A stretch of DNA of 64,000 nucleotides, from positions 34,227 to 98,226 of the forward strand of contig JAKSRY010000006.1 in assembly GCA_024403415.1 (NCBI GenBank). Direction: 5' to 3'. Positions within the stretch are counted from its first letter, which is position 1. The number at the start of each line of letters is the position of its first letter. This DNA is from Lachnospiraceae bacterium. GTDB taxonomy: Bacteria; Bacillota; Clostridia; Lachnospirales; Lachnospiraceae. Shown piece after piece: positions 9,682 to 60,381 of this stretch. The translations under genes were made by a program, and so were the position numbers. The notes under the pieces are model-generated. The model saw nothing but the letters and a program-made list of their open reading frames with translations, searched no databases and had not been told where the DNA came from.

Positions 9682-10650
9682 TTAAGCTTTTCCGTTTGAT
9701 CCAAGAACGTTAACGATCTTGTGAGCAACCATATCCTTAACAGCCTGACGAGCTGGCTTAAGGTACTGACGAGGATCAAAGTGATCAGGATGCTCTGCGA
9801 AGTACTTACGGATGTTACCTGTCATAGCAAGACGGATATCTGAGTCAATGTTGATCTTACATACAGCAAGTTCAGCAGCCTTACGTAACTGCTCCTCAGG
9901 GATACCAACAGCATCTGGCATGTTTCCGCCATACTGGTTAACCATCTTAACGAATTCCTGAGGTACTGATGAAGAACCATGAAGTACGATAGGGAATCCG
10001 GGAAGTCTCTTGATACACTCTTCAAGAACGTCGAAACGAAGCGGAGGAGGAACAAGGATACCATCAGCATTTCTTGTACACTGATCAGCTGTGAACTTGT
10101 AAGCACCATGAGAAGTTCCGATTGCGATTGCAAGTGAGTCACAACCTGTCTTATCAACGAACTCTTCAACTTCTTCAGGCTTTGTGTAAGCTTCGTTACC
10201 AGCTTCTACACAAACTTCATCTTCGATACCTGCAAGAGTACCAAGTTCTGCTTCTACTACTACTCCATGAGCATGAGCGTATTCAACTACCTGCTTTGTA
10301 AGAGCAATATTATCTTCAAAAGACTTTGAAGAAGCATCGATCATAACTGATGTAAATCCACCATCGATACATGACTTACATAATTCAAATGTGTCACCAT
10401 GATCTAAGTGTAATGCGATAGGAATATCAGGATTCTCTGCAACTGCTGCTTCTACTAACTTAACAAGGTATGTGTGGTTAGCATATGCTCTTGCACCTTT
10501 TGAAACCTGAAGGATAACAGGGCTCTTTAATTCTCCTGCTGCTTCTGTGATACCCTGAACGATTTCCATGTTGTTAACGTTGAATGCGCCAACAGCATAT
10601 CCGCCGTCATAGGCCTTTTTGAACATTTCTGTTGTTGTTACTAATGCCAT
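9682..10650 (-). CDS. fba: Class II fructose-bisphosphate aldolase
   Basis: 322 residues, typical of long class II aldolases. Zinc and catalytic motifs are present: ALHLDHGDTFELC (catalytic Asp and zinc His), VEAELGTLAGIEDEV, SLAIAIGTSHGAYKF with the zinc His, and VLHGSSSVPQEF with the second. It splits fructose 1,6-bisphosphate into dihydroxyacetone phosphate and glyceraldehyde 3-phosphate in glycolysis. Codons are clearly more biased than in the neighbours, as expected for a highly expressed glycolytic gene. It starts 49 bases after crh, with AAAGGAAG upstream, and ends at the 9627 terminator; its own promoter in the 49-base gap is possible. Confidence 0.96.
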   Translation of the reverse strand: MALVTTTEMFKKAYDGGYAVGAFNVNNMEIVQGITEAAGELKSPVILQVSKGARAYANHTYLVKLVEAAVAENPDIPIALHLDHGDTFELCKSCIDGGFTSVMIDASSKSFEDNIALTKQVVEYAHAHGVVVEAELGTLAGIEDEVCVEAGNEAYTKPEEVEEFVDKTGCDSLAIAIGTSHGAYKFTADQCTRNADGILVPPPLRFDVLEECIKRLPGFPIVLHGSSSVPQEFVKMVNQYGGNMPDAVGIPEEQLRKAAELAVCKINIDSDIRLAMTGNIRKYFAEHPDHFDPRQYLKPARQAVKDMVAHKIVNVLGSNGKA

Positions 10651-10699
10651 AACTATTCTTCCTTTCTGAATTAATTTATATTTTAGATATTATCATCTA

Positions 10700-10954
10700 C
10701 TACTTTTCGTTTGAGAGATAACTCTCGATGCCTTTTAAGGCCTCTTCTTCATCTTCTCCGTTAACGATTACATTAATTTCATCGCCATTTCTGAGATTAA
10801 GGCTCATCATACCCATGATACTTTTGGCATTAACCTTCTTTCCGCCTGTCTGAAGGTATATCGTGCTGTCATATCTGCTGGCAACCTGAACTAACATTGC
10901 AATGGGTCTTGCTTCCAGGGAACTGGGAAGTTGGTTCTTCACAATCTTTTCCAT
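10700..10954 (-). CDS. crh: HPr-like carbon-catabolite protein lacking the phosphocarrier His (Crh type)
   Basis: 84 residues with the HPr fold. The active-site loop, normally G-I-H-A-R-P, reads SSLEARPIAM, so the His15 position is Glu14. The regulatory serine segment is intact as VNAKSIMGMMSL (Ser45, equivalent to Ser46). Bacillus Crh has the same pattern with Gln at this position; Crh cannot carry phosphate for sugar uptake but, once phosphorylated on serine by HprK, is a corepressor for CcpA. The gene lies after rapZ and whiA as in the Bacillus yvcJ-yvcK-yvcL-crh cluster (no yvcK here), and hprK is 4 kb upstream in the same direction. It starts 18 bases after whiA. Confidence 0.82.
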   Translation of the reverse strand: MEKIVKNQLPSSLEARPIAMLVQVASRYDSTIYLQTGGKKVNAKSIMGMMSLNLRNGDEINVIVNGEDEEEALKGIESYLSNEK

Positions 10955-10971
10955 AATAGTCTCCTCGTTAA

Positions 10972-11736
10972 TTACTCCTCAATTGATTCCGCTATTTCGC
11001 AAAGTTTTCGCAACCTGTGATTCACACCTGATTTTCCAATCGGTGGATTAAAATACCCCCCAAGTTCTGTCATAGAACTCTCCGGATGTTCCATCCTGAT
11101 TTCAGCCATAATTTTTAGTGATTCCGGCAAGAAATCAAGTCCCCTCATCCGTTCAATTTTTTGAATACCCTCAATCTGTTTCGCCGAAGCAGAAACTGCT
11201 TTTGCGATATTTGCTGTCTCACAATTAACCTTTCGATTAATTGAGTTTGACAATTCTTTTTCAACTCTCAGACTTTCAAGTGCCATCAGTGACTTGTGTG
11301 CCCCCATAACATTCAATGCATCAACAAGTAAATCTGCCTCTCTGATATACAAAACAAAGTTCGTTTTCCTACGAGATACTTTGGCATTTATATTAAAGTC
11401 CTCGAATAACCCTTTTAGTAATTCGGCTTTTGCCAAATCCTTAAAAACAAATTCAAGATTATATGCCTTCATCGGATCTGACATACTTCCCACACACAAA
11501 AAAGCCCCCCTAATAAATGCTCTTTTGCAACAGGAATTATTAATCCGAAGCTCAACATACTTATTTATCATACTTGCTTTTTTTTGTAAAGTAAAGCATT
11601 TTCTTCCTGCATGGGTTGTATCATCAATCTTTTCCGGGCCCAACAGATTAATCGCTGACAATTCTGAAAGCTGACAGTGTCTTGCTGAAGAAATCACTTC
11701 AACAAGTTCATCTTTAACCTCAGTTGAAAATGACAT
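10972..11736 (-). CDS. whiA: WhiA family DNA-binding regulator, shortened N-terminal domain
   Basis: 254 residues from the chosen start, against about 310-320 usual. It opens MSFSTEVKDELVEVISSARH as in the family, but after SELSAINLL much of the first LAGLIDADG-like domain is missing and the sequence moves quickly to the conserved NNSCCKRAFIRGAFLCVGS. The rest is regular: VRVEKELSNSINRKVNCE-type hinge, then the C-terminal helix-turn-helix (MTELGGYFNPPIGKSGVNHR). Family members regulate or influence cell division. The ATG at 11736 has AGGAG 8 bases upstream; the upstream GTG at 11745 directly abuts it. It starts 12 bases after the rapZ stop. Confidence 0.88.
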   Translation of the reverse strand: MSFSTEVKDELVEVISSARHCQLSELSAINLLGPEKIDDTTHAGRKCFTLQKKASMINKYVELRINNSCCKRAFIRGAFLCVGSMSDPMKAYNLEFVFKDLAKAELLKGLFEDFNINAKVSRRKTNFVLYIREADLLVDALNVMGAHKSLMALESLRVEKELSNSINRKVNCETANIAKAVSASAKQIEGIQKIERMRGLDFLPESLKIMAEIRMEHPESSMTELGGYFNPPIGKSGVNHRLRKLCEIAESIEE

Positions 11737-50393: not shown

Positions 50394-51449
50394 TTATACA
50401 TATATTTCTCTTGGAACATGACGAATCACTAATCTATCTTGGTTATACATAAAATATAGATTTGTTAAAACTTCTGCAACATATGACAAGGCTCTGGTGT
50501 TTGCTATGTCAGGAACTTCATCACTCATGTTTTCCATATACTCAGTTATTTCAAAAAACCATTTGCAATAGGCATCAAACACATCCTTTTTTGCACAAAC
50601 AATATTATATGTGTACTGATACTTGCCTTCTAATATCTTAATATAGTCGTCATATTCATTTGGATGTATTGTTTTTAATGCGTTATATAGAGCATTTTTA
50701 ACATCTTCATTAACAAATCTTCTAAATTGATGCATTGTATCCGGATAACATATATATGGCAACGGAAGAATAGCATCTATATCTTCTGTTAATATTTCTG
50801 GAGTCAACATTATATGCCTTCTATAATGTTCTATTCCCTTCCATTCATGAGAAGTATTTTTCCATACCCAATAAGTTGCTGACATTTCACAATACTGTTT
50901 GTTTTTAGCAGAAATATTATCACCGGAAAAATCCGTCAAATCTGCCACTCGTACATCTGTTAAAGCCGCTCCCGCTTGAATAGCTTTCTCATGAGATTTC
51001 AAATTCGGATGCATAGATAGTGGTTTATCTCTGTGATTAGATACTTCATAGCATACAAAATCAATATGTCTACTTTCTTTATCTTCAATGTTTTTCTCTA
51101 TAACCGGAAATTTACCTACACTTCTAAAATATGCAGACATAAGAGAATATTCTTCCTTTTGTGATAATAAATATACTGATTTATATCCTTCTTTATTTAA
51201 GTAGGGTACAACTTCTTTCTGTATTAGCTCGGTTACTCCTACTATTATTGGTATATTTTTAGAAATATTTCGTATTTCACAAACAGGAATCCCTTCAATG
51301 TCCGTCGGATTATTGTCTAATGAATTCACTGCAAAATAAAGGGGCACTTTATTAAAGAGCCCCTTTATTGCTATGTATGCACCATATGCCACTACCTGCG
51401 CACCATATATTACAAATTCATCAAATTTTTCAATTTCGTCAATTATCAA
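50394..51449 (-). CDS. DUF4422-type glycosyltransferase with N-terminal Rossmann-like module
   Basis: 351 residues. The first 100 or so residues resemble the module shared across this locus (FVIYGAQVVAYGAYIAIKG, a second strand LYFAVNSLDNN, and IIVGVTELIQKEVVPYLNK). The remaining 230 are the DUF4422 domain of capsule-type glycosyltransferases: HPNLKSHEKAIQAGAALTDV, ATYWVWKNTSHEWKGIEHYR. The donor and acceptor sugars are unknown. TTG start with AGAGGA 7 bases upstream, 11 bases after the radical SAM gene stop. Last gene of the locus; no terminator is seen. It is the only protein with the module at the N-terminus. Confidence 0.8.
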   Translation of the reverse strand: MIIDEIEKFDEFVIYGAQVVAYGAYIAIKGLFNKVPLYFAVNSLDNNPTDIEGIPVCEIRNISKNIPIIVGVTELIQKEVVPYLNKEGYKSVYLLSQKEEYSLMSAYFRSVGKFPVIEKNIEDKESRHIDFVCYEVSNHRDKPLSMHPNLKSHEKAIQAGAALTDVRVADLTDFSGDNISAKNKQYCEMSATYWVWKNTSHEWKGIEHYRRHIMLTPEILTEDIDAILPLPYICYPDTMHQFRRFVNEDVKNALYNALKTIHPNEYDDYIKILEGKYQYTYNIVCAKKDVFDAYCKWFFEITEYMENMSDEVPDIANTRALSYVAEVLTNLYFMYNQDRLVIRHVPREIYV

Positions 51450-51460
51450 TTTGTTATCCT

Positions 51461-53074
51461 CTAGATTTCATATGGTAATAAAATTTTCTCTTCAGGAACA
51501 CCTATTTTTAAGGCCTGGTCTTTAATTTCCTCAAAACGCGAATAATGACCAATAATCATATAATCAAACTCATCATATTTATCAATAAGATATTCTGGTA
51601 GGTGAGTTGTTACTCCGTAAAAATCCTTTTCCTCTTTTGCACAATCACTATCTATAGCAAAAAGTAGATTACCTCCTGAACTCTCAACCGCATCTGCAAT
51701 AAAACTACCAGACAAGCCAGTTCCCCAAATGATATATTTTTTACCAGCTATTATTGCATCTCGCTTCCATTTAACAAGATTATCAACTTCATCTAATGAA
51801 ATCACTTTCTTTGGATCCCACATTTTTATCACTTCTTCAAAGCTTGTCATATACGCAATTCTGTCAAATCCAATCTTTCTGAGCGACAACGCATTTTTAC
51901 TAAATAATAGACATTCTTTCCCTATATGCAATGTTCCAGGATTAAGTATATTTTTTTCGATAATTCTATCTATATCTTCCACAGAGAATTCATCATTAGC
52001 AGAATATACTATCCATTCACTGGCATTATCTATCGCCTTATTCAAATCCTTTCCAAAATTATTTCCTTCTGGAATCACAACTTTATCATATTCATGTATG
52101 AATAAAATAGAGTTATTGGCATTAAAACGATCCTCATAATGCTCAATATATGGCTGTGCTGCAGAAAAGTGTTTTCCGGGCGCTTTGCTTTCTTCAGCAA
52201 TAACTCCATTTTCAATTTTAACCAGATTAATACGACCTGCTTTAAGTCTGGGACTTCCTATCTCTTCAAGCATCTTATAGAGAGTTGGTGAAACATCATC
52301 TGTCTCTTCTTCTGCATCACGCATAAATGTATCCAATGCAAAACCACAAATTTCACACCAGTGTAACTGGTCTCCAAATTCTTCCGGCGTGCGTTTCCAC
52401 CAACCTGGTTCTATCTTCCAACCACCAGGACCATCGAATAACATATCCAAAGCTCCCGCTATTTCACAGAAGAAAGCTCCTTTGGGTGTTATCGTCGCAC
52501 TCCATTCATTCTGAATCCAGCATTTATCCCTCATAGGAATCCACTCTTCATCTGATATTCCAAGATCCTTTCGAGAAAATAACCCTGGCTGATGATATGA
52601 AGAATTAATGTGGTCGTTTAAGAATTGAACATTGAATGTATCCTGAGCAAGTTCATAATATTTACGATATGAGGCCCCCATGTTAGACCAAAGGCCTGGT
52701 CCACACATTCTAAAATTATCTTGCTTCCCTTCTTCTTGTCGAAGTACATGACTTTCAAATTCTCTTCTTCTAACTTCTTTAATAAAGTTCTTCTGTGGAT
52801 ATATAAGCCTGTTCTGTTCTTTTCTCTCTCCAAATTTTTCTCTTATATATGCTACAAATCGTTCAAACTGTGGATGTAAGGTAGGTTCTCCACCCATCAC
52901 ACCTACAACACCGGTATAACCATCCAATGAATCTATTGCTCTTTTAAAAGTATCATAGTCCATAAAAAATGACTTGTTGTGATTTCCACAAAAACGTGTA
53001 CAGTTAGAACAACGTTTATTGCATGCATTAGTTATATCTACTTGAATTGTTTGCATATCAGCAGGTGATCTCAT
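51461..53074 (-). CDS. Radical SAM protein with C-terminal Rossmann-like module (paralog 1)
   Basis: 537 residues from the chosen start, which matches the paralog at 60381 (both begin ATGAGATCACCT). The [4Fe-4S] motif is ITNACNKRCSNC (C-x3-C-x2-C). A later cysteine set (CWIQNEWSATITPKGAFFC and WCEICG) may bind an auxiliary cluster. Residues about 345-440 hold ASEWIVYSANDEFSVEDIDR and NILNPGTLHI, also in the paralog. The last 90 residues are the Rossmann-like module (KYIIWGTGLSGSFIADAVES, LLFAIDSDCAKEEKDFYG). AAGGAG is 5 bases before ATG 53074; ATG 53089 has no site. A hairpin terminator lies just upstream. Reaction unknown. Confidence 0.82.
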   Translation of the reverse strand: MRSPADMQTIQVDITNACNKRCSNCTRFCGNHNKSFFMDYDTFKRAIDSLDGYTGVVGVMGGEPTLHPQFERFVAYIREKFGERKEQNRLIYPQKNFIKEVRRREFESHVLRQEEGKQDNFRMCGPGLWSNMGASYRKYYELAQDTFNVQFLNDHINSSYHQPGLFSRKDLGISDEEWIPMRDKCWIQNEWSATITPKGAFFCEIAGALDMLFDGPGGWKIEPGWWKRTPEEFGDQLHWCEICGFALDTFMRDAEEETDDVSPTLYKMLEEIGSPRLKAGRINLVKIENGVIAEESKAPGKHFSAAQPYIEHYEDRFNANNSILFIHEYDKVVIPEGNNFGKDLNKAIDNASEWIVYSANDEFSVEDIDRIIEKNILNPGTLHIGKECLLFSKNALSLRKIGFDRIAYMTSFEEVIKMWDPKKVISLDEVDNLVKWKRDAIIAGKKYIIWGTGLSGSFIADAVESSGGNLLFAIDSDCAKEEKDFYGVTTHLPEYLIDKYDEFDYMIIGHYSRFEEIKDQALKIGVPEEKILLPYEI

Positions 53075-53092
53075 ATGCTCTCCTTTCATATG

Positions 53093-53117
53093 AAAAAACT
53101 TCGCATTAAATGCGAAG
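53093..53117 (-). terminator. Strong terminator splitting the glycan locus
   Basis: CTTCGCAT (53099-53106) and ATGCGAAG (53110-53117) with a 3-base loop, followed on the minus strand by T6 (53098-53093). It lies about 100 bases after GT2-1 and 19 bases before the radical SAM start at 53074. A TATAAT at 53128-53133 and a GTTGAATAATTCAAC palindrome near 53154-53169 upstream could supply a new promoter. Confidence 0.85.
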
Positions 53118-53219
53118 CCAATAATTCATTATAAATAAATCCGTTCGCAACTTAGTTGAATTATTCAACCATAGTAATATATCGGACAAAAATACTAAAA
53201 ACTATACATCTAAACAACG

Positions 53220-54425
53220 TCATCTGGCATAAATCTTTTGATAATCTTGAAAATCATCAGGTATTTCTTCTTCAGATGCAACCCAGGCAACCACATTGGC
53301 ATAATCAGCTAATAATATCTGTGCATACCAATACTTCCCAATCATTCCTTTTCCAACGAGTACTATTTTTGCCCCCTGTTCAACTTCATCATACGGAAAC
53401 TGAAAACGCATAATAGCCGTAGTCATTTTAGAACCATATGCTCTGGATGTTTTAAACAGTATTTCTTCTAATGAGTTAGTTGTAATCAATGAGTACCATT
53501 GACCTATTCTATAATCATAAAAATAGTTTTCCGACAAATCTACTGCGCCAAGCATTTCAAAGATTTCATTATTGTACTTGTCATACAACTCTTTGATTTT
53601 AGTCAACTCTACCATCTTGTCGAAATATTCACGCATTAGTCTGAGTGCCATATTAATATAGCTTCTCTTAACTTCATCATAGATTCCATATTCACGCATC
53701 TTAGACACAATAGAATATGTGGCAGCATATGCCGCTTCAGGATGCTTGGTTTGTGAATCACATTGACTTGAACCCGTATTAAATCTGTAATTTACATATA
53801 TTCTGTCAACATACGTTATTCTCTTTGCAAATACCATCGCAAGAGCTGGCAGGTACTGGTCATCAGATATAGGAATTGATTCAAATTTTAAGTCATACTC
53901 CCTAATCAAATCCATCTTATACATCTTATTCCAGGCAATTAAGTCTCCTATCTGGAAAATTTTGTCCGGTATATCTTTATAACAAAAGGGATCATTAGCC
54001 GGTACGTTCTGCAACTCTATTGGTTCATATATTTTAGTCACCCTGCTTTGCTTATCATCAAACCACTGCGCCTTGTAGATAACAACATCCGCATCTTTCT
54101 CCTCTGCTTTATTAACAACATCCTCGACCATATTGGGTTCAAAGAAATCATCACTGTCCAGAAAAAGAATATAATCTCCTGTTGCATTGGATAATCCTAA
54201 GTTTCTGGCAGATGCAGCTCCTTTTCCTTCGTTCTTTTTAGTAAAAATCCTTATTCTACTATCTTTGTCTGCATATTCTTTGAGTATACTTAACGAATTA
54301 TCTGTAGAACCATCATCTACACAAATTATCTCCAACGACTTATATGTTTGATTTATTACAGAATTTAGGCATTGGGATAAATATTTTGATGTATTATATA
54401 CTGGTATAACTATAGAGACTAACAT
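53220..54425 (-). CDS. Family 2 glycosyltransferase with truncated Rossmann-like module (GT2-1)
   Basis: 401 residues. GT-A domain: SIVIPVYNTSKYLSQCLNSV, ICVDDGSTDNSLSIL, GAASARNLGLSNATGDYIL and the DxD-like FLDSDDFFEPNMV. The last 50 residues start the shared module (AKIVLVGKGMIGKYWYAQIL, VVAWVASEEEIPDD) but stop near the middle of it, where the others have about 40 more residues. Donor and acceptor are unknown. It begins 2 bases before the GT2-2 stop and ends 103 bases before the 53117 hairpin. Confidence 0.85.
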   Translation of the reverse strand: MLVSIVIPVYNTSKYLSQCLNSVINQTYKSLEIICVDDGSTDNSLSILKEYADKDSRIRIFTKKNEGKGAASARNLGLSNATGDYILFLDSDDFFEPNMVEDVVNKAEEKDADVVIYKAQWFDDKQSRVTKIYEPIELQNVPANDPFCYKDIPDKIFQIGDLIAWNKMYKMDLIREYDLKFESIPISDDQYLPALAMVFAKRITYVDRIYVNYRFNTGSSQCDSQTKHPEAAYAATYSIVSKMREYGIYDEVKRSYINMALRLMREYFDKMVELTKIKELYDKYNNEIFEMLGAVDLSENYFYDYRIGQWYSLITTNSLEEILFKTSRAYGSKMTTAIMRFQFPYDEVEQGAKIVLVGKGMIGKYWYAQILLADYANVVAWVASEEEIPDDFQDYQKIYAR

Positions 54426-54427
54426 TT

Positions 54428-55801
54428 TTACCCTTTAATTCCTTCTTCGAGAGTCTTTTCTGTAAACGAAATATTTGCTTCATATATATCTTTATAATAT
54501 ATTTTATTGCAATCTATACCTTGATCAATTAAATTTTTTCTTATTTCATCTGCCACTTTTTTATTTGCAACTGCTATCAAAATATAGTCGTATTCCAATT
54601 CTTTCAATTGACTAATTGATTGTACAGGAAAACCAATCTTTTCATAATTCCTATCAACCCATCCTACTACTTCTACATTTTTATTAAATAGTAATTGCAT
54701 ATAATATGTTTTTCCGTAATCACCTGCGCCATATATCACAACCTTATATTTTCCATTAAAATCTGCATATGGAAAATGTATTTCCAGACCATTGAAGATA
54801 TTAATATAATATTTATTATAAGTGAACAAATAATCTAGCACAGGCAGGCTCACTATCTGTTGCATTTTCAACACATTTTCATATACATCTCTTGTATCCG
54901 GCCATTTTTCAGATAATAAAACCGGATATATTTCTGTCTTCAGATATTCATATAATTCACAGAACGATTCTCTTTTCTTTAAGGATCTGAGGTAATATTC
55001 ACAATAATCAACAACTAATTTTATAAAAGATTCTCTTAACTCTTCATATACATCACTATGGATAAGTTCTTCCCTCAATTTCATCACAAACTTAGGTGCA
55101 GATAGTGGACTATTATCCATTTGAGCTGTTTGACCAGTTGGCACATTAGAACGATAATATATGAATTTTTCTCTTATACTGGTAATTCGTTTGGCCAGTA
55201 TCAAAGAAGAATATGAGAAAAAAGCATCGTCAGCATGAAAAACATTTTGAAATAGCAATCCACTTTTCACTACAAATTCTCGCAAATAAAGCTTATTCCA
55301 AGCCCAACCGGAACTAGTTTGAAATATACATTCTTTTATGTCTTTCCATGAAAATACTTCTTTATTTGGAAAGTAATTAAAATCCGTAATTCTATTAGTT
55401 TCACATGATAAAGTTTTTGAAACATCATCATAAATATATCCATCAAAAAATACTATTTCCGCTTCTTCCTGATCTGCTTTTAAGCTCAGTTTTTCCAGCA
55501 TCGTTGATTCAAACCAATCATCCGCATCAAGGAATATAAGATATTTTCCCGATGCATATTTTAATCCCTCATTTCTTGCTGCAGCAGCACCATATCCTTC
55601 ATGCTTTTTCTTTATATACTTAAATCTTTCATCATATGAAATAATATTTTGTATTATTTCACAAGAAGAATCCGTTGAATCATCGTCAACACATATTACT
55701 TCTATTTCTTTTAAGGTCTGATTCAGCAGAGAATCCAAACATTTTTTTAAATATTTTTCACTATTGTATACCGGAACTACAACCGAAACTCTTATATCCA
55801 T
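54428..55801 (-). CDS. Family 2 glycosyltransferase with C-terminal Rossmann-like module (GT2-2)
   Basis: 457 residues from the ATG at 55801 (AGGG 8 bases upstream; a TTG at 55804 would be a minor alternative). GT-A domain: VSVVVPVYNSEKYLKKCLDS, VICVDDDSTDSSCEII, AAAARNEGLKYASGKYLI and FLDADDWFESTMLEKL. The C-terminal module is complete: YKVVIYGAGDYGKTYYMQLL, VEVVGWVDRNYEKIGFPVQS and YDYILIAVANKKVADEIRKN. Related to GT2-1 but not close. Sugars unknown. The 5' neighbour is the broken methyltransferase, 15 bases away. Confidence 0.87.
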   Translation of the reverse strand: MDIRVSVVVPVYNSEKYLKKCLDSLLNQTLKEIEVICVDDDSTDSSCEIIQNIISYDERFKYIKKKHEGYGAAAARNEGLKYASGKYLIFLDADDWFESTMLEKLSLKADQEEAEIVFFDGYIYDDVSKTLSCETNRITDFNYFPNKEVFSWKDIKECIFQTSSGWAWNKLYLREFVVKSGLLFQNVFHADDAFFSYSSLILAKRITSIREKFIYYRSNVPTGQTAQMDNSPLSAPKFVMKLREELIHSDVYEELRESFIKLVVDYCEYYLRSLKKRESFCELYEYLKTEIYPVLLSEKWPDTRDVYENVLKMQQIVSLPVLDYLFTYNKYYINIFNGLEIHFPYADFNGKYKVVIYGAGDYGKTYYMQLLFNKNVEVVGWVDRNYEKIGFPVQSISQLKELEYDYILIAVANKKVADEIRKNLIDQGIDCNKIYYKDIYEANISFTEKTLEEGIKG

Positions 55802-55815
55802 CAATTTATCCCTAT

Positions 55816-56410
55816 CTACTTCTTAATTCCTACAATAACTGATTCCGTTTCCGAAATATTGTAATAACTAGTATTGACTTCTACTTCCTTAACTACTTCT
55901 TCCATGAGCTTTATTGCACTTTGCTTTGTAAAAAAATGAAAATGATCTGTATTTGATAATTCAATATCATCAATTGGAATATGCATTAGCATTTTTCCAC
56001 CCACATTTAGCATCTTTTCAAGATTTTTTAAAACTTCCAACGGATAATGCAAATGTTCAATAACATGAAAAGACATAATTAAATCAAATGAGTAATTAAG
56101 TTTTGAAAACTCTTCAATTGGCAGATTGGAAATATCAACACCCAAACTCTAAAACTTTATGTATTTTATCATTTAGTAGTCCAAATCTTTCCAGTTCACA
56201 AATTCTTCCATTTAACCATTGTGACCATTCTTTACCTTCTTTTACTTCAAGAATACCCTGTCTGTTTTTATCATCTTTCCAATATTTTTTATCATAATAT
56301 TTTTTTAATATTTCGTTAGGAATATATTCTCTATATCCATGCGTACAATTAATACATCTGCGTACTCCGTAACCTAATTCTACATTTTCCGTGCATCCAC
56401 AAATAAACAT
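55816..56410 (-). pseudogene. SAM-dependent methyltransferase broken by an internal deletion
   Basis: Two frames together make one class I methyltransferase. Frame 1 (56410-56135) has an N-terminal Cys cluster (CGC...CINC, zinc-ribbon-like) and runs to KVLEFGC, the start of SAM motif I, then stops. Frame 2 (from 56145) resumes with GVDISNLPIEEFSKL, normal for the acidic end of the second strand, then DLIMSFHVIEHLHYPLEVLK and the rest. About 20 residues that should hold the G-x-G loop are missing and the frame has shifted. Without that loop it cannot bind SAM, so it is probably inactive. A sequencing or assembly error would give a one-base change, not a loss of this size. Confidence 0.8.
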
Positions 56411-56451
56411 CGCTAAATAGTAATTCTAACCCCAAATAATTGTGTTTATTT

Positions 56452-57564
56452 CTACAGAAACCTTAAAAATGACTTTATATCAAATAGTGCACTCTCTTCA
56501 AAAAGCTTTTCATCAGAATTATCCAATATTTCTTTAAAAAATAAATCTCCAACTTCTGTTACAAGTTTCTCTCCTACACAGGAAGCCGTGTCCATATTAA
56601 ATTCGTAATACATTTCATCTATACCACTTATATACCAGACTTTGCTACCTTCAACTCCATATGCCATCACTCTGTCATAGCTAATCCTTGAATCCAATAT
56701 CCCCTGCAAACCTATTGATTCCTCTCTCAAACATATAATGTTTCCTTCATCTTTGAGTATCATAAAAAAATTAGAATTTGTAGGGATTAAAAGATATCCT
56801 GAACTTATTTTAACTATGCTCTGAAAAGGAATATTTGCACAGTTATAGTCTGATGGATAGTCATATATTTCTGTGCATTCTTTCTTTTTTCTATCATACA
56901 TAGCTACTGCTCCATGCCTTCTTGGAGTTAATATAATACGATCCTCAGTAACACCTATTCCGTTAAATCCAATTCCGCTAAAAGGGATTGGTAAGATATA
57001 ATGAGAATGATTATTTAAATTATATACCAAAACAGAATTACTATTACCTATCGAGCAATACACATGATTTTCATATTGATTTACACCTGTTATTAATGCA
57101 TCATCATTTTGTCGTATTTTACACAAATTCTCTACAACATCGGTATCATATGTTACTTCAAGAGTTTCCATATCTATAATAACCAATGCAGGATAAAAAT
57201 GAGGAAATATATACATATACTGCCCATTTACAAATGAACGTGCAAATTTACCCGGCTTTAAATTTATGGCATCAGTGTCAAAATCTATTTCAGGTGCTAT
57301 CTTTATATTCGTAAGTTCGCATGTCTCTCGATCATAAATCCATATCTTGGTTCCCCAAAATGGTATCAAAAAAAACTTGGATTTATACTTTTCAATCGCA
57401 AAGAATGTTCTATGTTGAAAGAAATTACTTCCAGGAATTCTTGCCAGCATGGTTATTTCTCTATTTTCCAATGACATTTCATACAGAGCATTGTGATTAA
57501 AAGCCGGAAATATTATTTTCCCATTTTCCTCTATATACTTTTCAAATGTTATTTTGATATTCAT
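56452..57564 (-). CDS. Beta-propeller-like protein of unknown function
   Basis: 370 residues. No known family is recognised, but similar units recur: KIWIYDRETCELTNIKI, LVIIDMETLEVTYDTDVV, VLVYNLNNHSHYILPIPF, VAMYDRKKKECTEIYDYP and KVWYISGIDEMYYEFNMD. Their spacing of about 45-60 residues and the hydrophobic-Tyr-Asp pattern fit blades of a six- or seven-blade propeller (kelch or WD-like). No signal peptide, so cytoplasmic. It may bind a glycan intermediate or scaffold the other enzymes (inference). AAGGATT precedes the ATG. Confidence 0.55.
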   Translation of the reverse strand: MNIKITFEKYIEENGKIIFPAFNHNALYEMSLENREITMLARIPGSNFFQHRTFFAIEKYKSKFFLIPFWGTKIWIYDRETCELTNIKIAPEIDFDTDAINLKPGKFARSFVNGQYMYIFPHFYPALVIIDMETLEVTYDTDVVENLCKIRQNDDALITGVNQYENHVYCSIGNSNSVLVYNLNNHSHYILPIPFSGIGFNGIGVTEDRIILTPRRHGAVAMYDRKKKECTEIYDYPSDYNCANIPFQSIVKISSGYLLIPTNSNFFMILKDEGNIICLREESIGLQGILDSRISYDRVMAYGVEGSKVWYISGIDEMYYEFNMDTASCVGEKLVTEVGDLFFKEILDNSDEKLFEESALFDIKSFLRFL

Positions 57565-57587
57565 AATAATAGTTGAATCCTTATATA

Positions 57588-58799
57588 CTATAGTCTGTCA
57601 TAAACCCACATTGTTTTATCTTTAGGAACACCCAGTTCAACTGCTTTTCTACGTATTTCATAAAATAATTCTCTGGATTTGACAGCAATTATTAATTTTT
57701 GAAATTCATAGTCTTTTAGATATTCCGGATTATAAACATTATCATTATTAATATTACTATCGACCCATACCATAACTTTTGATTTCATGCCGCTCCGATG
57801 AATGGAATTTATAAGCAATTTACCAATATGTCCAGCTCCCCATATAGCAATATTCTCATATTTGTCAAATATGATAGAATCAATCTCTGTCAGTTCATAT
57901 TCCGCAGATTCATTCGCTATCCGATTCATATGCTTATAGTAAATCCATTTATGTTTATAATCCTTAAGATTACTAACCAATACACCAATAAATTCACTCA
58001 CAAATTCTTCATCATAATATTTATTCATAAATGCTCTTAGGCTAATATCTATATCATCAATGCTAATACCCAGTGGGTCTTCATTATTCGAATAACTAAA
58101 TGTTGCTCCTGTTATAGGTTGCATTGCAATGTCAATTAAGTCACGGAAGACTTCATCCTTATTTCTTTCAAGACTAAGTATTCCCATGTATTCAGTCCCG
58201 TGCATCTCTCCTTCAGAATCAACATAATAGTTTAGTCTCTTTTTTCCCATCCACCCTGTATAGAAATAACAAGCACCTAACTCAGATGTGACCCCATATA
58301 TTTCCACATCATGTAAAATTACAATTCCATCTTTTCTCATAAATGGATATAACATTATAAAATCTATTAATGCACCTGGATGTGCATGCATTCCATCAAT
58401 AAATACCATATCTATTTTTTTATCTTTTATTATATCTTCTATATCAGAAGCCGTTTTACCAGTATAAAAACTCCAATGTTTAAGTTCGTTATTACTGCAT
58501 CCTTCATATGCAGCATGGCCATAATACTCACCTGTAGCTTTTTCTATTCCATATAATATAAAGTCACTTCTATCAGATCCGGCTTTAAGCATGTACATAC
58601 TTGTCATTCCGGAAGACACACCTACTTCAACAACAGTGTTAATTCTGCCTCCATCCTGAAAAATATGATTTTTTATTAAACTCATTAAACAGCCTATCTG
58701 AGATGGTGTAGCGCAAGTTATATCTTTTTGCGTCATATAATCATAATCAACACTTTCAAAAAGCTTTCTTCCCTCTACTTCGTGATATGTACTAATCAT
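57588..58799 (-). CDS. Class I SAM methyltransferase with C-terminal Rossmann-like module
   Basis: 403 residues. The first 300 form a methyltransferase of the Methyltransf_24/CmcI-like kind: VVEVGVSSGMTSMYMLKAG (motif I), IDMVFIDGMHAHPGALIDF and GIVILHDVEIYGVTSELGA. The last 90 are the module shared across the locus: ENIAIWGAGHIGKLLINSIH, SKVMVWVDSNINNDN and QKLIIAVKSRELFYEIRRK. Such enzymes can methylate sugars or small molecules. AGGAG is 7 bases before the ATG. It is 55 bases after radical SAM paralog 2. Confidence 0.82.
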   Translation of the reverse strand: MISTYHEVEGRKLFESVDYDYMTQKDITCATPSQIGCLMSLIKNHIFQDGGRINTVVEVGVSSGMTSMYMLKAGSDRSDFILYGIEKATGEYYGHAAYEGCSNNELKHWSFYTGKTASDIEDIIKDKKIDMVFIDGMHAHPGALIDFIMLYPFMRKDGIVILHDVEIYGVTSELGACYFYTGWMGKKRLNYYVDSEGEMHGTEYMGILSLERNKDEVFRDLIDIAMQPITGATFSYSNNEDPLGISIDDIDISLRAFMNKYYDEEFVSEFIGVLVSNLKDYKHKWIYYKHMNRIANESAEYELTEIDSIIFDKYENIAIWGAGHIGKLLINSIHRSGMKSKVMVWVDSNINNDNVYNPEYLKDYEFQKLIIAVKSRELFYEIRRKAVELGVPKDKTMWVYDRL

Positions 58800-58854
58800 A
58801 TATATTCTCCTGTAATTCTATTTATCTCTTTCTCCAACAAAACGTTAAAATTGC

Positions 58855-60381
58855 TTAATTCGTATAGCAAGCATCTATCCACTTTACAGAACTCTCACTG
58901 ATTCCTTCTGCCACAAGTTCTTTTTTAATTTCTTCAAAAATATCTTTTTTTTCAATTGCGACAAATATTAAATCATGATCAATATTTTTTATTTCTTCAG
59001 GATTTACAATTGGGTATCCCATCTCTTTATATTTTTTATCCGACCATGCTACAATCTGCTTGAGCTTATTCTTATTAATGAACCAACTCATCAATTCTTT
59101 ACCCCTGCGTCCTGCACCATATATTACAATTTTCTTTTCTTCTTCTAACTGAATTAGATTTTCATTAAGTACATTAACCTTCAAATCAGATATATTTATT
59201 ATTTTATCCACAGGATAGATTCTCCATAAGGATTTATCCAGGATTTCACCATTTATAATAATATCTCTTAATGCCCTTGATCTGACATTAAATACAAGCG
59301 TTTCACCAAATACATACAGGCAACCGGGATTAAGAATATATTCACTCAAAATTTTTTCTACTTTTGCAAGTTTTTCTTTGTCTTGATCTACCAAAATCCA
59401 ATCTTTTGCATCATTTACAATAGAATTTATCTCTTCCCAATTCGAATGTAAAAAAGATTTAGGATATAAATTTCTATTCTCCTTAGTTGTTCGTTGGTTA
59501 TTACCAAGATCCATGTAATCATTCTCACCAATAAATGTATGATACTTTGTTTTATCATATTCTTGTGGATTATGAACTACACACATTCCGCGCTTTGCCT
59601 TAGGACTACCTATTTCCATTAGTTTTTCGTACATTTCCGGGGTAACATCGTCATGTCCATCATTTGAAATTCTCTTTGGAACATCCAAACAGCCTGAACA
59701 CATCTCACACCAGTGAAGCTGATCCTTAAAACCACTTATATCCCTTTTCCACCATCCTTTTTCAATTGGCCACCCCCCCGGTCCATCAAACAGCATATCT
59801 AGTGCCCCTGCCACTTCACAGAAAAAAGCTCCTTTCGGGGTAATTGTTGCTGACCAGGTATTTTGTATCCAACAGGCATCTCTTTTCTCTATCCATTCCT
59901 CATCACTAATACCAAGCTCTTTTCTTGGCATTAACAATGCCTGATGCATGCATGTATTATTATGATCGTTTAAAAGTTGAGTTCTAAAAGTATCATTTAT
60001 AACCTCGAAATTTTTATAATATCCATTTGAAAGAGAAGACCAGAGACCAACTCTTGAATCTAAATTAAACAGATTGTTATCAATATATTCCTGCATATCA
60101 TATATTGGTTTTCTTGCCATCTGTACATTTTGACCAATTCGTTTTTCTCTTATGTAATCCACAAATTTTTCAAATTCAGGGTGAAGAGTTGGTTCACCTC
60201 CTATCAACCCAACAATACCCTCATAATCTTCCAACGAATCGACTGCTTTACAAAACGTTTCATAATTCATAAAAAATGTACTCTTGTGATGACCACAAAA
60301 ACGAGTACAATTAGAACATATATTTCCACATGCGTTCGTGATATCTATCTGTATTTTACTCATATCTTTAGGTGATCTCAT
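58855..60381 (-). CDS. Radical SAM protein with C-terminal Rossmann-like module (paralog 2)
   Basis: 508 residues, first gene of the locus, paralogous to 51461-53074. Motif ITNACGNICSNCTRFCGHH (C-x3-C-x2-C), then CWIQNTWSATITPKGAFFC and LHWCEMCSGCLD for a possible second cluster. The conserved block FFCEVAGALDMLFDGPGG is nearly identical in both. A middle segment (DAKDWILVDQDKEKLAKVEK and ILNPGCLYVFG) recalls the end of a GT-A domain and is also in paralog 1. The last 95 residues hold the module (KKIVIYGAGRRGKELMSWFI, LKQIVAWSDKKYKEMGYPIV, DLIFVAIEKKDIFEEIKKEL). AGGAGG is 5 bases before the ATG. Reaction and substrate unknown. Confidence 0.83.
   Translation of the reverse strand: MRSPKDMSKIQIDITNACGNICSNCTRFCGHHKSTFFMNYETFCKAVDSLEDYEGIVGLIGGEPTLHPEFEKFVDYIREKRIGQNVQMARKPIYDMQEYIDNNLFNLDSRVGLWSSLSNGYYKNFEVINDTFRTQLLNDHNNTCMHQALLMPRKELGISDEEWIEKRDACWIQNTWSATITPKGAFFCEVAGALDMLFDGPGGWPIEKGWWKRDISGFKDQLHWCEMCSGCLDVPKRISNDGHDDVTPEMYEKLMEIGSPKAKRGMCVVHNPQEYDKTKYHTFIGENDYMDLGNNQRTTKENRNLYPKSFLHSNWEEINSIVNDAKDWILVDQDKEKLAKVEKILSEYILNPGCLYVFGETLVFNVRSRALRDIIINGEILDKSLWRIYPVDKIINISDLKVNVLNENLIQLEEEKKIVIYGAGRRGKELMSWFINKNKLKQIVAWSDKKYKEMGYPIVNPEEIKNIDHDLIFVAIEKKDIFEEIKKELVAEGISESSVKWIDACYTN

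Follow-up and report, generated by a model that had tools for sequence, protein, structure and literature searches.

Introduction

How do the soluble transferases that build a capsule or another surface glycan find each other in the cell, and how do they avoid the enzymes of other pathways? To our knowledge, this question is largely open. It is raised by a surface-glycan-like locus (50394-60381) in a stretch of 64,000 nucleotides from a Lachnospiraceae bacterium (assembly GCA_024403415.1, contig JAKSRY010000006.1, positions 34,227 to 98,226; hereafter, the window). Six of its eight proteins (two GT2 and one DUF4422 glycosyltransferases, a methyltransferase and two radical SAM proteins) carry the same small domain, here called the module. 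An original prediction, made from the sequence alone, had seen the module on six of the eight proteins, likened it to the N-terminal domain of PglD-type acetyltransferases (PglD_N), and proposed that it may bind a nucleotide, CoA or a nucleotide-sugar, or serve as a docking tag; its coordinates and gene content for the locus proved correct. Here we examine what the module is, where it occurs and what it may do.

One module on six proteins

The six proteins carry one homologous module of the Rossmann type, shortened in the second GT2 protein (GT2b). The genes and their modules are (aa, amino acids; ORF, open reading frame):

58855..60381, - strand: rSAM1, radical SAM protein, 508 aa, C-terminal module (Pfam, ORF)
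58858..59145, - strand: rSAM1 module (module profile, tree)
57588..58799, - strand: MT24, Methyltransf_24 protein, 403 aa, C-terminal module (PF13578, E 3e-14)
57591..57866, - strand: MT24 module (module profile, E 7e-17)
54428..55804, - strand: GT2a glycosyltransferase, 458 aa, C-terminal module (PF00535, 4e-39; PF17836, 7e-7)
54467..54757, - strand: GT2a module (module profile; AlphaFold2 model, pLDDT 92.4)
53220..54425, - strand: GT2b glycosyltransferase, 401 aa, shortened C-terminal module (PF00535, 4e-44)
53220..53369, - strand: GT2b half module, the first strand-helix-strand and a few residues (module profile)
51461..53089, - strand: rSAM2, radical SAM protein, 542 aa as ORF, C-terminal module
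51464..51751, - strand: rSAM2 module (PF22674, 4e-8; module profile, E 2e-20)
50394..51449, - strand: DUF4422 (GT111-type) transferase, 351 aa, N-terminal module
51135..51431, - strand: DUF4422 N-terminal module (module profile, predicted fold)

An iterated profile of the module matched all six (GT2a, 1e-23; rSAM2, 2e-20; rSAM1, 3e-20; MT24, 7e-17; DUF4422, 5e-12; the GT2b half module, 7e-5). These E-values are flattering, because the window proteins were among the 1219 ORFs of 82 sequences on which the profile was trained. Its threshold of 1e-4 admits a few ordinary domains; one oxidoreductase and one hexapeptide protein counted below probably entered in this way. When the module sequences alone were compared by phmmer, GT2a, rSAM1, MT24 and rSAM2 formed a chain (best E 6e-18 to 2e-7), the modules of rSAM1 and rSAM2 matching each other directly at only 0.14. 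The half module matched the GT2a module only (5e-5), and the DUF4422 module had no link to the other modules of the locus (0.44 or worse). Profile-profile comparison of class alignments, which is less circular, related GT2 to rSAM (3e-30), to DUF4422 (2e-14) and to the half module (5e-12), where controls reached 1.6e-6 over 17 columns. The values for the half module with the DUF4422, TM, MT24 and WbsX classes (0.5 to 5e-4), and for DUF4422 with TM, MT24, GT8 and WbsX (2e-5 to 5e-7), lay within the control range. One control was an outlier (DUF4422 module with DUF4422 catalytic part, 2e-22), which we think is due to a truncated protein carrying its module into the catalytic set. That the DUF4422 N-terminus is the same module is settled by its predicted fold, described below.

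Five of the six proteins have the full module. In GT2b the short form is itself conserved: relatives from three other loci (L076, L070 and L078) have comparable short ends, and in the same reading frame beyond the GT2b stop there are only stops and unrelated residues (other frames were not read through). In the genome of origin, a search with the module profile at E<=0.01 gave five matches, and the four strong ones all lie inside the locus.

Fold and signature residues

What kind of domain is this? It belongs to the Rossmann-type accessory domains, together with PglD_N, FlaA1-N and the WbaP accessory domain. The predicted structures of two modules, that of GT2a and the N-terminal one of DUF4422, each match the FlaA1-type entry 3nkl and the WbaP accessory domain, so that these two modules, as modelled, are not differently folded. 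The module shares the fold of the UDP-binding N-domain of PglD_N and of the WbaP-type accessory domain. The best 50 fold matches listed are all nucleotide-binding or uncharacterised proteins. Matches of the module profile to PDB sequences include 7txp, 7l7z and Rex entries, and the fold search returned many dehydrogenases. A profile of standalone modules (A5) found nothing among PDB sequences at E<=0.01. Structural relatives were taken from profile and fold searches only, because a search with the single GT2a module ranked chance-like MglA matches above 3nkl and was not used.

The domain itself is already in Pfam, as PglD_N (PF17836) and C2185-like_N (PF22674). For PF17836 (cut-off, 23.4 bits), GT2a scores 30.1 and rSAM1 18.8, which is below the cut-off; the others are unlisted at E<=1. 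For PF22674 (cut-off, 27 bits), rSAM2 scores 33.8, and GT2a (24.9), MT24 (19.5) and rSAM1 (15.4) remain below, GT2b and DUF4422 not being among the matches listed. The C2185-like domain comes from the N-terminus of a single protein of Clostridium acetobutylicum, uncharacterised and 306 residues long (PDB 2g6t), whereas here the module is locus-wide.

Over the 253 modules of the fetched set, the three glycines of GxGxxG are conserved at 93, 84 and 59%, and the Asp at the end of the second strand (beta2) at 80%. In Pcryo_0637, an acetyltransferase with the PglD_N domain, two consecutive residues, Asp40 and Asp41, are reported to hold ribose and uracil (PMC8040287). The second Asp of such a pair is mostly absent over the 253 modules: the position that follows the beta2 Asp, which is the probable equivalent of the uracil Asp, holds K, N, S or R in the majority and D in 9%. 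The modules are thus like PglD, VioB and Pcryo_0637 in that GT2a passes the PF17836 cut-off, 7txp and 7l7z match the module profile, and most classes retain the glycine loop and first Asp. They differ in that the second Asp is mostly lost, that the partners are transferases, radical SAM proteins and methyltransferases, and that the beta-helix transferase is missing (no hexapeptide family in any locus protein by Pfam). The glycine and Asp motif, described at first as shared by all, holds in most classes and fails in DUF4422 modules (n=20), where the second glycine is kept in 2/20, the third in 1/20 and the beta2 Asp in 3/20; yet the one modelled is predicted to retain the fold.

Other relatives are more distant in architecture. 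The accessory domain of WbaP and PglF (PF13727) is flanked by a four-helix bundle on one side and a single catalytic domain on the other, and a locus-wide spread is not known from that work (PMC10942596), whereas the module here is on many enzymes. No WbaP-type four-helix bundle and catalytic core was found around it, the partners in the locus being GT2, radical SAM, methyltransferase and DUF4422 proteins. As to the Rex redox repressors, no DNA-binding part was seen in the locus proteins, and the context differs.

The module follows the locus, not the enzyme family

Does the module belong to particular enzyme families, or to particular loci? In the three families tested (rSAM, WbsX and DUF4422), its presence tracks the locus and not the family. 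Loci of the rSAM1/rSAM2 family were fetched by rSAM alone, not by the module. Another module lay within 6 kb in 23/24 loci with a module on the rSAM protein vs. 4/33 without (p 7e-11; the count excludes L094, which nearly duplicates L095, and three loci in which no rSAM ORF was recognised). The difference persists outside loci labelled Lachnospiraceae (9/10 vs. 4/32, p 1.4e-5) and with ORFs of at least 380 aa only (22/23 vs. 4/23). WbsX, searched by its own family, gave 29 rows in 150 genomes. In module loci, WbsX has a module of its own or an adjacent one in 8/8 cases (6 fused, 2 with a standalone module directly downstream). Elsewhere a fused or adjacent module was seen in 0/20 fetched regions (p 3e-7 for 8 vs. 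20); these represent 20 of the 21 rows outside module contigs, and our own model recognised no WbsX ORF in 2 of the 20. Two other WbsX regions have a borderline module match (4e-5, 9e-5) elsewhere in the region, and a ninth WbsX, in a relative of the same genus that had been fetched on account of its modules, is fused too. DUF4422, again searched by its own family, lay near other modules in 10/12 cases with a module and in 0/40 without, 28 of these 40 ORFs being in loci of only ~3.6 kb; three contig-end rows (G004) were left out, and two loci (L183, L184) gave no recognised ORF. In loci of at least 6 kb, the counts are 10/12 vs. 0/12 (p 7e-5). The genome of origin has 42 GT2 matches, spread over several loci; by profiles the module was seen only on GT2a and GT2b, although one as short as that of GT2b could escape detection elsewhere.

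Radical SAM proteins of the rSAM1/rSAM2 family without a module were also observed in Brachyspira, Acidobacteriota, Desulfovibrio, Pelagibacteraceae and others (within L048-L108).

In 33 dense loci, 207/387 ORFs carry the module. This density is not an unbiased rate, because the loci were picked by rSAM or module matches. GT2 proteins make up 56/207 ORFs with the module and 10/124 without, the latter tally covering 124 of 180 module-less ORFs (a random 147 less 23, among those one rSAM and two window flank genes). Among the 124 are 13 Epimerase and 11 NTP_transferase proteins, and neither family is among those listed for module proteins (one such protein per module-protein list could still exist beyond the families listed). 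Since sugar-nucleotide enzymes are thus frequent among module-less ORFs and unlisted among module-bearing ones, the module seems to mark the enzymes that act on the glycan.

Partners and exchange of modules

In the fetched set, the 253 modules are carried by 252 ORFs, with partners from twenty Pfam families. They include GT2, GT4, GT8, GT90, DUF4422/GT111, GT-D, WbsX, RgpF, WavE, Gly_transf_sug, TOD1_MUCI70, MptE-like, TupA ATP-grasp, glycerophosphotransferase, radical SAM, FkbM, Methyltransf_24, Methyltransf_11, FrhB-type and cytidylyltransferase-like proteins. The end that carries the module is fixed in the three largest classes (C-terminal in 63/64 GT2 and 36/36 rSAM1/rSAM2 family proteins, N-terminal in 20/20 DUF4422 proteins); in another radical SAM type it is N-terminal. 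At E<=1e-5 the module profile matched 117 of 150 family genomes, 34 of them at least three times; the one or two weak matches of many genomes may be Rex-like. Among the matches listed, leaving aside genomes with a single one, 116/136 lie within 6 kb of another module.

A FastTree tree of 164 modules (100 columns; 82/161 inner branches open) shows 36 changes of partner class, where shuffled labels give 91.8 and the minimum is 7; the "FkbM" group in it holds at least one other radical SAM type. The rSAM1 module falls in a set of 34 rows, 27 of them GT2 (support 96). The module of rSAM2 belongs to a set made up of 10 rSAM rows (support 97). Since the two proteins are 40% identical and their modules fall in different sets, modules appear to have been swapped between enzymes. 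Spread by copying between neighbouring genes was considered and dropped: back-to-back C-then-N pairs, such as rSAM2/DUF4422 in the window, do not stand out among adjacent module orientations (C>N 29, C>C 70, N>N 21, N>C 18).

Modules that stand alone

Nineteen short ORFs of one type consist of the module alone or nearly alone. They were drawn from 30 short ORFs with a module; the remaining 11 do not match the standalone type and resemble gene fragments or other proteins. About 12/19 have an N-terminal hydrophobic stretch (hydropathy of at least 1.6 over a span of 19 residues); of the others, three are borderline, three lack it, and one is truncated by the contig end. Of 235 larger module proteins, only 4 have a hydrophobic stretch above 1.9. 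In the 13 loci with a standalone module, it is adjacent to 9/12 module-less GT2, GT8, GT4 or WbsX proteins vs. 1/14 module-bearing ones (p 8e-4). Because the GT4 model was built partly from adjacent genes, the test was repeated without it (7/9 vs. 1/13, p 1.5e-3). In one locus (L131) a standalone gene overlaps a module-less WbsX gene by one base, and elsewhere this transferase occurs as a fusion with that module subtype; such a fused-and-split pair is the usual genomic hint of physical partnership. The locus has a tandem pair of standalone modules with membrane helices (10101-11089), downstream of the module-less WbsX transferase. The arrangement recalls Alg13-Alg14 and EpsE-EpsF, where a membrane-anchor subunit in trans stands beside a catalytic subunit and fused forms are reported elsewhere (PMC4973528). 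The likeness is a functional analogy only: the anchor there is half of a MurG-type enzyme, and here it is an extra domain on many unrelated enzymes.

In another locus (L134, 12571-12987), a standalone module without a membrane helix lies directly upstream of a gene for a glycyl radical (PFL-like) enzyme.

What does the module do?

Of the two functions first proposed, nucleotide binding and docking, the second is the better supported, though unproven, and to that extent the original interpretation stands in part. We suggest that the module is a common connector, acting in cis or in trans, which assembles the glycan-acting enzymes of one pathway, and give this proposal an even chance. The modules would bind each other or a common partner through their sheet edges, by analogy with the accessory domains of WbaP. 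In the WbaP dimer, most inter-chain contacts are reported to lie within the accessory domain (PMC10942596), and models of EpsZ and EpsW are reported to show strand exchange between domains of this kind (PMC12802240). The connector would keep a pathway's glycosyltransferases, methyltransferases and radical SAM enzymes assembled at the membrane and apart from the other glycan pathways of the cell, and in some loci the membrane-anchored standalone copy would provide the attachment. In most classes the assembly may be tuned by nucleotides bound in the retained pocket; such binding can hardly be required in the DUF4422 proteins, because most have lost the signature.

Several observations weigh against a connector. 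Most classes keep the glycine loop and the beta2 Asp, for which a pure docking tag would have no use. Only 9/19 standalone modules adjoin a module-less transferase of the four families, one adjoins a module-bearing GT2, and the genome of origin (87% complete) shows no standalone module at E<=1e-8. Four rSAM genes without a module adjoin modules, one locus (L059) holds a single module, and no second module lies within 6 kb of either of two module-bearing DUF4422 genes (G013). The 124 module-less ORFs of dense loci include ten GT2 and five radical SAM proteins. Mean module identity is.203 within a locus and.195 between loci, a difference so slight that a locus-specific docking code was rejected as the main idea (the modules of one locus are not homogenised, and the nearest neighbour is from the same locus for 15/249).

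The strongest alternative is a nucleotide domain with a regulatory or substrate-binding role. Through it each enzyme would sense UDP, a UDP-sugar or NAD(H), in the manner of relatives of PglD, WbaP and Rex, and the loci would have the module in common because they have a metabolic signal in common. The conserved glycine loop and beta2 Asp favor it, as do the relatives: the WbaP accessory domain is implicated in uridine nucleotide binding by thermal denaturation and UMP inhibition, as reported in PMC10942596, Pcryo_0637 is reported to have UDP in its N-domain (PMC8040287), and the Rex entries and many dehydrogenases met in profile and fold matches are NAD-dependent. However, DUF4422 proteins have the module in 20/20 cases with the signature mostly gone, the half module of GT2b is conserved without the remainder, the inferred uracil position seldom holds Asp, and a shared signal leaves standalone copies beside module-less transferases unexplained. 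We regard this sensor role as unlikely, though worth keeping in view. It is quite improbable that the module is a handle for a common acceptor (a lipid-, nucleotide- or protein-linked glycan), the same on each enzyme acting there. It would fit that the module is on transferases and modifying enzymes, with makers of sugar nucleotides not among the families listed, and that anchored copies would sit at the membrane, where lipid-linked acceptors are. But enzyme sets, and hence probably glycans, differ by locus, conservation falls on the residues of a nucleotide loop, and the best 50 fold matches listed are nucleotide-binding or uncharacterised proteins. Ordinary accretion of a mobile accessory domain, frequent in the glycan enzymes of these bacteria and without joint function, is the least probable, for although the domain is in Pfam and its tree shows switches of partner class (36, minimum 7), the switches are far below those of shuffled labels, and the same enzyme families, partly in the same genomes, were not seen with the module outside module loci.

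The locus and its other features

The eight genes are all on the - strand, with intergenic gaps of 2 to 130 bases, in the order rSAM1, Methyltransf_24, 370-aa protein, two-piece class I methyltransferase, GT2a, GT2b, rSAM2 and DUF4422. No export-type gene is apparent among them. The features without a module are:

56452..57564, - strand: 370-aa protein without module (no Pfam match; propeller-like by eye only)
55816..56410, - strand: class I methyltransferase, split in two ORFs (91 and 109 aa), no module seen
53097..53119, - strand: terminator-like hairpin, 10 pairs then a T run, directly before the rSAM2 start

The 370-aa protein has relatives in six other fetched loci (L082, L090, L143, L048, L089, L079), all of which hold modules. 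In the split methyltransferase, the segment between motif I and the GVDIS region is apparently absent, as if by internal deletion. The hairpin sits inside the presumed operon, and four such sites occur in the region where shuffles give 3.5. The promoter scan was also uninformative in the region (51 sites vs. 60.7 from shuffles). For rSAM2, a start at 53074 is likelier, as judged by the ribosome-binding site. The DUF4422 protein was confirmed to have its DUF4422 domain (PF14393, GT111) with the WbbM fold. rSAM1 has the pattern of a radical SAM protein with one auxiliary cluster (CX3CX2C and conserved downstream cysteines). Among its relatives C18, C22 and C25 are kept in 59/61 and C170, C188, C225 and C228 in 60-61/61; the latter four probably hold the auxiliary cluster. 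PHROGs models matched four locus proteins, as generic radical SAM, one unknown and one methyltransferase.

The G+C content of the locus is 0.324, vs. 0.365-0.397 in 81 windows of equal length elsewhere in the 64 kb. In five other genomes of the genus, a search with rSAM1 gave short generic or module-only matches at most. Because of the low G+C and the want of fuller rSAM1 matches in genus relatives, the locus looks like an acquired cassette.

Concluding remarks

Is such a system already described? In the open-licence literature, surveyed by titles and the starts of abstracts and in part only for the larger result sets, no such locus was found. A paper with frequent mentions of Rossmann domains (PMC4039749) is concerned, where it bears on this question, with the annotation of glycosyltransferases. 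The novelty claimed at the outset holds for the locus-wide use and not for the domain, a known Pfam family; within that survey, what is new is that a known domain is used throughout a locus, both in cis and in trans. As to the product, DUF4422 belongs with GT111, whose sole characterised member is reported to add galactofuranose (PMC12269835), and UDP-galactopyranose mutase is found in 3/124 module-less ORFs of dense loci. Our guess is a galactofuranose-containing, methylated and radical-modified glycan.

More tentatively, and with somewhat more doubt than confidence, we propose a general assembly standard: one Rossmann connector, in cis on about twenty families or membrane-anchored in trans, would group the acceptor-side enzymes into a membrane complex and keep parallel glycan pathways unmixed. 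If true, a tag readable in the sequence would show which enzymes form one assembly and would allow uncharacterised genes to be assigned to pathways; two uncharacterised radical SAM enzymes would be tied to a glycan pathway, and the question of assembly becomes directly testable by pull-down.
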